This document shows, piece after piece, positions 35,725 to 45,550 of a stretch of 64,000 nucleotides of DNA (positions are counted from its first letter, which is position 1; every line of letters begins with the position of its first letter). Below the pieces are notes generated by a model. The model saw only the letters and a list, made by a program, of their open reading frames with translations. It was not told where the DNA came from and did no database searches. Origin of the DNA: Natrialbaceae archaeon AArc-T1-2 (GTDB taxonomy: Archaea > Halobacteriota > Halobacteria > Halobacteriales > Natrialbaceae); assembly GCF_030273315.1 (NCBI RefSeq), contig NZ_CP127174.1, positions 124,001 through 188,000 on the forward strand. The letters run 5' to 3'. The position numbers and the translations under genes were made by a program.

Positions 35725-36543
35725 TCAGTTCAGAATCGATTGCGCGACGGTTGCGAGCTGGCTGTTGTCGGCGTCGCGAAGCCGTTCGTCGCCGATCTTC
35801 AGGCGGAGTCGCGGCCGACCGACGTCGATCGGGACCTTCTCGGTATCGAGCAGCCCCATGTCCTCGAGTTTGGTCTTGGTCCGAGAGAACGTCGCCTTGC
35901 TGGCGATCCCGACGTCTTCACCCCACTTGCTGATATCGTACAGCAACGCTTCGTTTTTCGCGGCGACGAGCAGCGAGATGGTGACTTCGTCGAGGCCCTC
36001 GCCGTCGCCGCGAGCGGTCTCGAGCGAACTCAGGATTGCGGTGAAGTCGTCCTCGGCCTCGCCGCTGATCTCCGTTGCGAGCGTTTCCTGGACCCGAGAG
36101 ATCGGCGGTGTCCGGAGATTGAACGACGCCGCGTCCTCCCAGCGATGTTCGTAGGTATCGTAGGCGGCGTCGACGAACCCCTCGTCGTCCGTGGCGAGAC
36201 CGCCGACGCGGTCGCCGGCGTGGACGACGGCGACGACGTTCGACTCGGTAACCAGAAGCGAGTTTTCGGGCGCTTCCTCGAGCGTCCGAAGCGAGAGCGT
36301 GCCGTCGGCGATGAGATCGGCGGCGTTGCTGGCGACGATGAAATCGGCCATGACGTCTTTGATCGTACGCTCGTCTGCGAGCATGTGTACCGTCGGAAGC
36401 TCGCCGTCGAACTCGGTCGCGACGCTGACGAACTCCTCGATAGCGTCCCACGACGGATTCACCATGTACACGTCACCAGCCGCCTCCTCGAGTACTGACT
36501 CGAGTATATCGTCAATCTGGTGATTTAGTAAATTCGAGTCCAT
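35725..36543 (-). CDS. TbsP-like transcriptional regulator (DUF5821 type)
   Basis: A 272-residue protein that resembles, from memory, the haloarchaeal regulator TbsP/DUF5821 linked to glycolytic gene control. Residues 1-115 are an alpha/beta domain (DVYMVNPSWDAIEEFV; ADFIVASNAADLIADGTLSL), and residues about 190-250 are a winged helix (ISLLVAAKNEALLYDISKW, then GIASKATFSRTKTKLEDMGL). Its upstream region has an AT-rich palindrome, TATACGTATA, at 36564-36573, where a leaderless TATA/operator would be. The targets are unknown here. Confidence 0.7.
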   Translation of the reverse strand: MDSNLLNHQIDDILESVLEEAAGDVYMVNPSWDAIEEFVSVATEFDGELPTVHMLADERTIKDVMADFIVASNAADLIADGTLSLRTLEEAPENSLLVTESNVVAVVHAGDRVGGLATDDEGFVDAAYDTYEHRWEDAASFNLRTPPISRVQETLATEISGEAEDDFTAILSSLETARGDGEGLDEVTISLLVAAKNEALLYDISKWGEDVGIASKATFSRTKTKLEDMGLLDTEKVPIDVGRPRLRLKIGDERLRDADNSQLATVAQSILN

Positions 36544-36977: not shown

Positions 36978-39032
36978 CTAGAGGCGATGACACAGCACCG
37001 TCGACCAGTATAGCTCGCCGTCGTAGACGACCGGAAGCTTCGTCTCCTCGAGAAACGCCACGAGCTGGTCGCGATCGAGGGTGAATCGGGAGGGAGTCCC
37101 ACAGAGATATGCGTCACGGTTCGGTTCGATATGCGGGAAGTAGTACTCGCCTGTGGTGCGAGTCGAATAACACTCGAGCGTGAGCTCGAACCGGTCGTCC
37201 GCGAGCCGGGTTACGCGACCGGTCGTGGGGAGACGGGTGTCGCCCTGTATGAGCGAGTGGGTGCCGTCGCCGACGACGGTGTAGTCCTTTCCCATCAGGA
37301 TGCGTCTGCGCGCCAGCCCGAGTGCGCGTTCGATGCTAAAGCCGTGAACCAGGAGCTTGGCGAACGTCGAGCCGACCGTCAGAGCGTGATCGTCGAGCAC
37401 CGGTGCGACCGTCACCGCACCGGCGACGCTTCCCTTCTCGACGAGGCGTAGGCCCTCGTAAAACGACCCGCAGGCGTTGAGGAAGAACGTCTGGGCGGTA
37501 CACTCCGCGAGACTGCTCGTCGACAGGTAGCCGTCCGGACAGCGCAGTCCGTCGGCCTCGCAGTGACCGACGTAGTGAACGAAGTCGTACTCGGATTCGA
37601 ATACGCGCGCGAGCGCGGCCGTATCGAGCGACTCCTCGACGGTCAGTTCGATCGATCGTTCGCAGGCCCGTTTTCGGCAGGTCGAGACGACGTCTCTGTG
37701 TTCCGGGGCCATCTCCGGCTCGTTCAACACCGCACAGATCGACGTCGCGTCGGTCGTCCGCTCAAGGTACGCAAAGCGGTTGTGATACGACGTCACCGAC
37801 GCCTTGAAGACGTCGATCGGAACGCCGTCTGCGAGCCAGCCGTGTACCCGTCCCGTCTTGAGGTCGGGATCGACGACGTCGACGGACGGAACGCGTCCGG
37901 TACCGGTCTGTCGTCCCCGGTAATGAGCCTCGATAGATCGATCGACCAGGTCTCGCCCGTCGAGCCTGGACGTCCGCGGCGTGAACACGAGGCTCAGTCG
38001 GTCGAGCAGAAACGGCAACGCCTCGACGGTCGCAGGTTCGGGCGCGACGTACGTCGAGAGATGCCACTCCGGAAGGTGAGACGCGATCGATTCGAGCGGC
38101 GTCTCGAGGTAGGCGTCGAGACGCTCCGCCGGCGACGCCGTGTAGAGAGCATCGGCGTCGAGGTCGTGACTCTCGAGCAACGCCACTTCCGCAAGGCGCG
38201 TACCGTACGGCCCCGCGTTGCGAACGAGGCAGTCGAGTCCGAAGACGACCCGGAGCAACCGCTCGATGTCTCCCTCGAGCGACGGCATCGACGACAGCCG
38301 GCACTCGAGTCCTACAGCAGGGGCCCGAAGCGTCGGAGTGGTTCCTGGGTCGGTTCGGACCGACGCCCCGAGATAGTACGCAAGCGGTGCGATGACGAAC
38401 AGCGGTTCATACGCGGGTGGGACGATCAGCTCGATTCCCGTCTCGGCAGTCTCTGTCCGGATCCGATCGGGAACGTCGAGAGCGTCGCCGGGTTCAAACA
38501 GCGGTGGATGCCCTCGAAGTGTCGGATAGCTCCGATCCGGACCGTCGGTCTTGTGTGCCGCCCCGCTGTGTGTGATCGCCGTCGCTAGAGCTGCGGGATC
38601 GGGCGGGACGACGATTGCCCCGGTAGGTGACCGCTGGCGGCTACGAAAACCGATCGTCGTTCGTCGCCGCTCGGGAAACGAGACGACGACGCTGTCGAAG
38701 CCGTCGGTCTTCCGGACGGTCGCCGCGCCGGTGAACCGGAGGTACGTCTTGATCCCGGTGTCGACGTCGACGACGTACTCGTCGGACGGCAGCGACAGCG
38801 GCTCCCCGCCCGGATCTAGCTCGTACTGCCGGTCGCGCGCGAACGAGCTGGCGTAGACGACAGTGTGTGGAAACCGAAGCTCGCTTGTGGTCACCGTGAC
38901 GGCGTCGTCGACCGGCCGTCCGACGTCCGAGTCGGTGTCGTCGACGACGAGCTCGTCACCCCGAACGTGTAGCTCCGCGTTGTCGGCGTCGACGACACGA
39001 AGCTGATCACCCCGTAGCTCCCACTCGATCAT
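36978..39032 (-). CDS. CHAT-domain (caspase-like) protein
   Basis: A 684-residue protein with a CHAT-type protease domain at the C-terminal side (about residues 400-600). The dyad is visible: His in FVHYVGHCEADG (about H490) and Cys in FFLNACGSFYEG (about C521), followed by AVTVAPVLDDHALTVGSTFAKLL and ERALGLARRRILMG, typical of CHAT/caspase-like C-terminal helices. The first 400 residues form a large unassigned region, and the end a beta-rich tail. No TPR repeats are seen. ATG 39032 is preferred over GTG 39053, as an AT-rich TTAACATA sits about 27 bases upstream. Confidence 0.75.
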   Translation of the reverse strand: MIEWELRGDQLRVVDADNAELHVRGDELVVDDTDSDVGRPVDDAVTVTTSELRFPHTVVYASSFARDRQYELDPGGEPLSLPSDEYVVDVDTGIKTYLRFTGAATVRKTDGFDSVVVSFPERRRTTIGFRSRQRSPTGAIVVPPDPAALATAITHSGAAHKTDGPDRSYPTLRGHPPLFEPGDALDVPDRIRTETAETGIELIVPPAYEPLFVIAPLAYYLGASVRTDPGTTPTLRAPAVGLECRLSSMPSLEGDIERLLRVVFGLDCLVRNAGPYGTRLAEVALLESHDLDADALYTASPAERLDAYLETPLESIASHLPEWHLSTYVAPEPATVEALPFLLDRLSLVFTPRTSRLDGRDLVDRSIEAHYRGRQTGTGRVPSVDVVDPDLKTGRVHGWLADGVPIDVFKASVTSYHNRFAYLERTTDATSICAVLNEPEMAPEHRDVVSTCRKRACERSIELTVEESLDTAALARVFESEYDFVHYVGHCEADGLRCPDGYLSTSSLAECTAQTFFLNACGSFYEGLRLVEKGSVAGAVTVAPVLDDHALTVGSTFAKLLVHGFSIERALGLARRRILMGKDYTVVGDGTHSLIQGDTRLPTTGRVTRLADDRFELTLECYSTRTTGEYYFPHIEPNRDAYLCGTPSRFTLDRDQLVAFLEETKLPVVYDGELYWSTVLCHRL

Positions 39033-39222
39033 GTGATTACCGGGAGATACCACTGTATGTTAATTCTACTGGTAATTGTCTAAAACATACCGCACAGCGT
39101 TCCGTACTGACGAGACGGACTATCGGCTCGCCGAGTTCGTCGTGGCGTCTCTAGTCGGACGACTGAATCGCGTGTCGACGCTCTGTGGCCTCGATCGTCC
39201 TGGTTTGTCGTGGAAAGGTACA

Positions 39223-39230
39223 CTTATACT
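39223..39230 (+). promoter_or_regulatory. TATA box of glyA
   Basis: CTTATACT lies 26 bases before the ATG at 39253 and supports that start over an upstream in-frame codon at 39076. Confidence 0.6.
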
Positions 39231-39252
39231 TCGCCCTGACCCCACGTCGAAC

Positions 39253-40497
39253 ATGGAACACGAGCACGTCCGGGAGGTCGACCCGGCAGTCGCCGATGCA
39301 CTAGAGGGCGAGGTAGACCGACAGCGCGAGACGCTCCAGATGATCGCAAGCGAGAACCACGTCAGCCGTGCCGTTCTCGATGCACAGGGCAGCGCCCTGA
39401 CGAACAAGTACGCCGAGGGGTATCCCGGCGAACGCTACTACGGCGGCTGCGAATACGCCGACGACGTCGAACAGCTCGCGATCGACCGCGCGACAGAGCT
39501 GTTCGGTGCCGAACACGTCAACGTCCAGCCTCACTCGGGGACGCAGGCGAACCAGGCGGTCTACTTCGCTATGCTCGAGCCCGGCGATAAGATCCTCTCG
39601 CTCGATCTGAACCACGGCGGCCATCTCAGCCACGGTCATCCGGCGAACTTCACGGGTCAGCTCTACGAGGTCGAACAGTACGAGGTCGACCCAGAGACGG
39701 GCTATCTCGACTACGACGGCCTCGCCGACCACGCCGCCGAGTTCGATCCCGACATCATCGTCTCGGGCTACTCCGCGTATCCACGTGAGATCGAGTGGGA
39801 GCGCATCCAGGCAGCCGCCGACGACGTCGATGCCTTACACCTCGCGGACATCGCCCACATCACCGGCCTCGTCGCTGCGGACGTCCACCCCTCGCCCGTC
39901 GGCGTCGCCGACTTCGTCACTGGCAGCACGCACAAGACGATTCGTGCCGGCCGCGGTGGCATCGTCATGACGAGCGAGGAGTACGCCGACGACGTCGACG
40001 CGGCGGTGTTCCCCGGCGGACAGGGCGGCCCGCTCATGCACAACATCGCCGGCAAAGCGGTCGGCTTCAAGGAGGCCCTCGAGCCCGACTTTACCGAGTA
40101 CGCCGAACAGACCGTCGAGAACGCGAAAGCCCTGGGTGAGACGCTTTCCGACCACGGCCTCTCGCTCGTCTCCGACGGCACCGACAACCACCTCGTGCTG
40201 GTCGACCTTCGGGAGTCCCACCCCGACACGAGCGGTGGCGACGCGGAAGTCGCGCTCGAGGAGGCCGGTATCGTTCTCAACGCCAACACGGTCCCCGGCG
40301 AGACGCGCAGTCCGTTCGACCCGAGTGGCATCCGCGCCGGCACGCCCGCACTGACGACCCGTGGCTTCGATGAGGACGCGATCCGGACGGTCGGAGACTG
40401 TATCGCACGCGTCATCGACGCGCCCGACGACGAGGACGTGAAATCGGACGTCGGCGAGACGGTGTCGGAGCTGTGCCAGGAGTTCCCGCTGTACTGA
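39253..40497 (+). CDS. glyA: Serine hydroxymethyltransferase
   Basis: A 414-residue SHMT. It interconverts serine and glycine with transfer of a one-carbon unit to the folate/pterin carrier. Clear motifs are the QTLQMIASENHVSRAV opening region, NKYAEGYPGERYYGGCEY, the PLP lysine in VTGSTHKTIRAGRGG and GGPLMHN. The length is standard. It lies just upstream of a membrane-protein gene and folD, forming a one-carbon neighbourhood. Confidence 0.96.
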   Translation: MEHEHVREVDPAVADALEGEVDRQRETLQMIASENHVSRAVLDAQGSALTNKYAEGYPGERYYGGCEYADDVEQLAIDRATELFGAEHVNVQPHSGTQANQAVYFAMLEPGDKILSLDLNHGGHLSHGHPANFTGQLYEVEQYEVDPETGYLDYDGLADHAAEFDPDIIVSGYSAYPREIEWERIQAAADDVDALHLADIAHITGLVAADVHPSPVGVADFVTGSTHKTIRAGRGGIVMTSEEYADDVDAAVFPGGQGGPLMHNIAGKAVGFKEALEPDFTEYAEQTVENAKALGETLSDHGLSLVSDGTDNHLVLVDLRESHPDTSGGDAEVALEEAGIVLNANTVPGETRSPFDPSGIRAGTPALTTRGFDEDAIRTVGDCIARVIDAPDDEDVKSDVGETVSELCQEFPLY

Positions 40498-45056: not shown

Positions 45057-45196
45057 CACGGAGTGAAATCGTGGCAGGTGACACGAACGTATACGTATCT
45101 GTACAGTCTCCATCTGACATAGTTTATTTGACAGGGTATTAATATGCGGCAGCTGCAGGCCGCACTGCAACGTATCGAAGCGTGATACCTCGAGAT

Positions 45197-45550
45197 ATGT
45201 CACGCCGACGACTCAGTCGACGTAAGCTCATAGCCGCGGCCGGAACAACGAGTGCCCTCTTCATCGCCGGGTGTGTCGACGACGACGACGAACCCGACGA
45301 CGAGGAGCCCGAACCAGAGCCCGACGACGAGGAGCCCGAACCAGAGCCCGACGACGAGGACGACGAAATAGACGACGAAGACGACGAGATAGACGACGAA
45401 GACGACGAGGATGACGAGATGGTCGACGACGAGGACGATGAGGACGACGAAGATGACGAGATGGTCGACGACGAAGACGATGAGGACGACGAAGACGATG
45501 AGGACGACGAAGACGACGAGGACGACGAAGACGACGAAGACGACATGTAA
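45197..45550 (+). CDS. Tat-exported lipoprotein made almost wholly of Asp/Glu
   Basis: A 117-residue protein. Residues 1-25 are a twin-arginine signal (SRRRLSRRKLIAAAG) ending in a lipobox, FIAGC, so the mature protein would be lipid-anchored at a cysteine on the outer face. The mature part of about 92 residues is close to 90 per cent Asp and Glu, in repeats such as DDEEPEPEP (twice), DDEDDEI (twice) and MVDDEDDEDDEDDE (twice). Function unknown; a polyanion that binds cations or modulates the surface is a guess. ATG 45197 is chosen over GTG 45182. Confidence 0.7.
   Translation: MSRRRLSRRKLIAAAGTTSALFIAGCVDDDDEPDDEEPEPEPDDEEPEPEPDDEDDEIDDEDDEIDDEDDEDDEMVDDEDDEDDEDDEMVDDEDDEDDEDDEDDEDDEDDEDDEDDM

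Follow-up and report, generated by a model that had tools for sequence, protein, structure and literature searches.

A predicted CHAT protease with a conserved catalytic dyad

The gene at positions 36978..39032 (minus strand) of the window, by which we mean the whole 64,000-nucleotide stretch of DNA that was analysed, encodes a predicted haloarchaeal CHAT protease of 684 aa, of type A of its family, as described from its open reading frame, its homologues and AlphaFold2/Foldseek analysis. We propose, with a probability of about 0.5, that this protein is an active cytosolic CHAT protease that carries out regulated proteolysis in endogenous signalling, with the regulator TbsP, encoded by the adjoining gene, as its first candidate partner or target. 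The reading frame has an ATG start at 39032 and a TAG stop at 36978-36980; the protein begins MIEWELRGD, and the MIEW start is common to most relatives in the consensus. Where the public annotation of relatives was seen, it was mostly "hypothetical protein" and occasionally "CHAT domain-containing" or "caspase family".

AlphaFold2 modelling of the whole chain, from an input alignment of 51 window and locus sequences, gave a pLDDT of 87.9 and a pTM of 0.86. The best Foldseek match in the PDB was SAVED-CHAT (8tl0, E 6e-9); gingipain R (1cvr, E 4.5e-7), separase (5fby, E 7.8e-7), caspase-4 (6nry, E 1.8e-3) and caspase-3 (E 3e-3) were also matched, the two caspases with a probability of 1.00 across approximately 200 columns. 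Whole-chain TM-scores were low because the match was confined to one domain. Judged from the model, the C-terminal half is almost certainly a CHAT/caspase-fold (caspase-hemoglobinase, clan CD) domain, which was placed at residues 426-595 (37248..37757, minus strand) from these matches and from Pfam CHAT hits in relatives. A VVGDG motif was located in the alignment at the end of the domain (residues 586-590; 37263..37277, minus strand), and in the model a beta-rich C-terminal tail follows (residues 600-684; 36981..37235, minus strand). Pfam CHAT (PF12770) aligned with residues 458-583 of the window protein at E 0.25 and 11.2 bits, against a gathering cutoff of 24, and matched 25 of 51 family members at E≤1 (best E 1.2e-5). 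The window protein is thus a divergent CHAT relative by fold and dyad, and not a Pfam member by cutoff.

The dyad was located in the alignments at H490 (codon CAC, 37563-37565), within an HYVGHC motif at 37560..37577, and at C521 (codon TGC, 37470-37472), within an FFLNACGS motif at 37464..37487, both on the minus strand. Both residues were invariant in all 72 aligned homologues of the first set; since the mean column identity of the family alignment is 45%, the motif is not a chance match. In a deeper set comprising type A, type B and outgroup sequences, the dyad was kept in 91 of 92 proteins. It was intact in every haloarchaeal copy examined, down to approximately 32% identity with the window protein, and the segments around the two residues are among the most conserved of the family. 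Judged by this conservation, the protease is very probably catalytically active. The sole exception was an outgroup copy from genome G416 (L169:7040-9106), in which His is replaced by R and Cys by D within a full-length open frame; this double loss suggests, at the level of sequence, that the two residues evolve as a unit. The G416 relative is a natural pseudo-protease.

A preliminary description of this gene had proposed a caspase-like CHAT fold with a dyad at precisely these two residues, and had staked that proposal on whole-chain structure prediction and on dyad conservation in homologues. The prediction returned the caspase-hemoglobinase fold, with SAVED-CHAT, gingipain, separase and caspase-4 in agreement, and the dyad was conserved in both sequence sets.

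The N-terminal front

The front (residues 1-425), when folded alone with AlphaFold2, gave a pLDDT of 88.4. The model consists of a beta-sandwich of approximately 13 strands (residues 1-143; 38604..39032, minus strand) followed by an alpha/beta module (residues 145-425; 37758..38600, minus strand). Within the latter, R173, L217, D267 and R271 were invariant across the 92 deep relatives, which indicates that the front is also under strong constraint.

The preliminary description had recognised nothing in this region and had seen no TPR, and on both points our searches agreed with it. No family other than CHAT was found for the window protein in Pfam, NCBIfam, PADLOC or PDB sequences, a PDB sequence profile search gave no convincing match, and Pfam found no TPR at E≤1 in the window protein or its relatives. 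Comparison of the front model with PDB folds gave nothing at E<0.001, and its identification as a pseudo-caspase half, a SAVED domain or a TPR domain was rejected on that result. The weak PDB matches to the front were mostly to the N-terminal parts of GH31 glucosidases (E ~4e-3); this similarity of the modelled beta-sandwich is a weak one and is taken as a lead only.

Distribution of the family

Relatives of type A or type B were present in 365 of 391 Halobacteria genomes. When 20 of the 26 remaining genomes were rechecked with a profile, no credible match was found in any of them. Outside Halobacteria but within the phylum, relatives were found in four genomes, all of one methanogen-like family (f19, tentatively Methanocellaceae), where the gene occupies another conserved locus, close to dnaG. 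IMG/VR viral contigs contained no relative, and in BFVD there were only two matches at E<0.001, both to the fold; a viral origin was rejected on these grounds. A scan of genome contigs with the single window sequence yielded one named relative.

In a tree of 92 rows with the f19 sequences as outgroup, type A and type B had SH-aLRT support of 99% and 100%, respectively. The genome that contains the window holds one of each, type A in the window and, at G000:C1:2159069, a type B copy whose product is 35% identical to the window protein; this second copy was missed by the preliminary description. Relatives were also present on 25 plasmids, at 31-36% identity with the window protein, and the six of these that were placed in the tree were all type B, the copy number of which varies. 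Haloferax had type B only, and all sampled Haloferax genomes encoded a clan-CD CHAT protease with an intact dyad. Genomes were assigned to this genus by a PCNA 94.7-97.2% identical to that in PDB 3hi8, the H. volcanii protein, compared to 82-84% in other genera; one genome was also tied to Haloferax by the similarity of its plasmid to Haloferax larsenii. The best explanation of the distribution is that type A is a vertically inherited haloarchaeal gene rather than a mobile defence gene.

The type A locus

Downstream of the CHAT gene and on the same strand lies tbsP (35725..36543, minus strand), a transcriptional regulator gene identified by NF047393 (416 bits) and by adjacency; divergent from the CHAT gene is glyA (39253..40497, plus strand), encoding serine hydroxymethyltransferase (SHMT), identified by Pfam, NCBIfam and adjacency. 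Conservation sets the start of the SHMT protein at the ATG at 39253, although its longest reading frame opens at a TTG at 39076; automatic calls may therefore over-extend glyA by 39076-39252. Elsewhere in the window, at 45182-45550, there is a small lipoprotein-like reading frame with a very long Asp/Glu repeat.

When neighbours in other haloarchaea were listed, as the preliminary description had recommended, 74 loci had TbsP next to CHAT in the same orientation and 72 had a divergent SHMT, counts that include some duplicates of one record. TbsP was the neighbour in nearly every type A locus with a flank long enough to judge, and the SHMT-CHAT-TbsP order spanned taxonomic families; a more extended block, HflX-SBDS-PSMA-POP5-RPP30, appeared in no loci other than those of the window's own family. 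In genomes without type A, Haloferax included, SHMT mostly lay directly next to TbsP, leaving an empty site.

The CHAT-TbsP synteny may be positional inheritance only, a caution that follows from the gap between the two genes (435 bp here and up to approximately 540 bp elsewhere) and from the persistence of TbsP without type A in many genomes. At two other sites, diverged CHAT copies were again adjoined by a TbsP-like gene, here divergent from CHAT (L126:6448-7380 and L129:4465-5286, from the neighbour analysis). This recurrence favours a functional tie between CHAT and TbsP, two cases being few. Two papers, citing earlier work, state that TbsP mutations suppress the lethality of a trmB deletion and that gapII in Haloferax is controlled by TbsP with TrmB (PMC11834397, PMC13286277).

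The type B locus

DUF7504 (PF24336) was the adjacent same-strand gene in all sampled Haloferax loci; it also adjoined type B in two other genera of the family to which Haloferax belongs and on plasmids of Halomarina, Halostagnicola, Natronosalvus and Halorussus. Crossing of CHAT and DUF7504 positions gave at least 15 adjacencies within 1 kb, all on the same strand, compared to 0.28 expected for the same listed DUF7504 positions; these loci overlap partly with those inspected individually, and the two observations are not fully independent. Response regulators lay beside many of the type B-DUF7504 pairs in varying arrangements, and the Haloferax cassette consists of TrmB, a HalX response regulator, type B CHAT and DUF7504 (L113:6456-11516, genome G077; also L114). 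Among the neighbours examined, neither DUF7504 nor response regulator partners were found for the type B copy of the window's genome or for the copies of genus g30. On a Halostagnicola larsenii plasmid, the gene preceding type B CHAT (L077:4417-5802) encodes DUF7504 joined to a pair of HalOD1 output domains, an architecture hinting that DUF7504 may be a signalling component. Homology between TbsP and DUF7504 was rejected, as profile comparison gave none.

Proposed role and alternatives

The CHAT-TPR protease HetF of Anabaena acts in development and division rather than in defence (PMC8406250, PMC12288457) and cleaves the regulator PatU3 (PMC12288457). It is the nearest functional precedent, and on this basis regulated proteolysis is proposed, with the front as sensor or adaptor and TbsP as candidate partner. 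The window protein would be a cytosolic cysteine protease of the CHAT family that uses H490 and C521 for catalysis. Its beta-sandwich and alpha/beta front would take the place of TPR or SAVED as the sensing and substrate-presenting unit, and the catalytic domain would cleave an endogenous regulatory protein at a specific site under regulation, as HetF cleaves PatU3. The neighbouring TbsP would be the first protein to consider as partner or target. Endogenous regulation rather than defence is probable, given the fixed chromosomal locus, the wide distribution and the absence of defence context; involvement in the TbsP pathway is put forward more tentatively.

The preliminary description had leaned towards defence and death systems, had seen no partner, had suggested that the substrate may lie elsewhere and had rated the gene the best candidate for a new system. 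Its reading of the protein itself stood, and its reading of the context was not supported: this is a chromosomal core gene at a fixed housekeeping locus, in a family with relatives in most Halobacteria and with conserved neighbours that had been overlooked, TbsP for type A and DUF7504 and response regulators for type B. An abortive-infection or programmed-death protease, whose front senses infection and whose substrate is a toxin or pore-former from another locus, would nevertheless accord with the defence function of type III CRISPR CHAT proteases (Craspase and SAVED-CHAT, the latter being the top Foldseek match) and with the plasmid location and variable number of type B copies. We regard it as unlikely for the window protein, since type A occupies one locus among housekeeping genes across families, PADLOC had no match for it, no toxin or gasdermin was present among the neighbours and viral contigs lacked relatives. 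For the family as a whole, plasmid-borne type B copies may reflect a role in conflict.

About equally doubtful is that the caspase-like activity of haloarchaeal extracts is due to the type A protein, and to its type B relative in the case of Haloferax. That activity is constitutive and of LEVDase/VEIDase type; for the very high LEVDase activity of Haloferax extracts, which is sensitive to zVAD, no gene has been assigned, and gene homologues were reported to be lacking (PMC3615174). The intact CHAT protease of all sampled Haloferax genomes and the fold match to caspase-4 and caspase-3 would fit such an enzyme. The probability is kept low because caspase-like activity was also found in Pyrococcus and Sulfolobus, and because the same authors raised proteasome post-acidic sites as an alternative source (PMC3615174). 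P1 specificity is, moreover, not readable from sequence. Many clan CD relatives prefer a basic P1, which was also counted against this assignment.

Less likely still is a joint reading, in which the caspase-fold family of haloarchaea and their methanogen-like sister lineage would consist of housekeeping signalling proteases acting on sugar-metabolism regulators and would also be the source of the caspase-like activity; type A would then pair with TbsP, and Haloferax type B with its TrmB, response regulator and DUF7504 neighbourhood. Least likely of all is that the protein is a scaffold, catalytically silent or at least not proteolytic, in which the CHAT fold serves solely to bind partners. The G416 copy offers a precedent for this, but the retention of the dyad and its flanking motifs in haloarchaea is at odds with it.

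Archaea were said to be without caspase homologues despite the very strong caspase-like activity of haloarchaeal extracts (PMC3615174). A near-universal caspase-fold protease with an intact dyad in Halobacteria makes this question testable, and endogenous regulation, as preferred here, suggests a regulatory, non-defence use of CHAT proteases in Archaea. In the portion of the literature that was searched, no work on haloarchaeal CHAT proteins was found. The novelty lies in a CHAT family whose front and whose partner family (DUF7504) had not been described before and whose context is not one of defence.

Comparison with known systems

The window protein was not placed with the TPR-CHAT proteins (Csx29/Craspase, HetF), as it has no detectable TPR, or with anti-phage defence systems, given its fixed core locus and the lack of a PADLOC match. 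HetF is likewise a CHAT protease but has TPR and transmembrane parts, and the front of the window protein differs from these. SAVED-CHAT similarly couples a caspase-like CHAT domain to a sensing module; the front of the window protein, however, was not identified as SAVED by any search, and its gene lies at a fixed core locus where the neighbours examined included neither CRISPR nor cOA genes. Separase and gingipain R share the caspase-hemoglobinase fold and a long front preceding the catalytic domain, but are only 11-12% identical to the window protein, in which no secretion domain was seen; the link to separase is one of structural similarity by Foldseek only. Caspase-4 and caspase-3 differ from the window protein, which is a single 684-aa chain matched at an E of only 1.8e-3 by caspase-4, but they resemble it in fold and in an xAC catalytic motif, which is QACRG in caspases and NACGS here.
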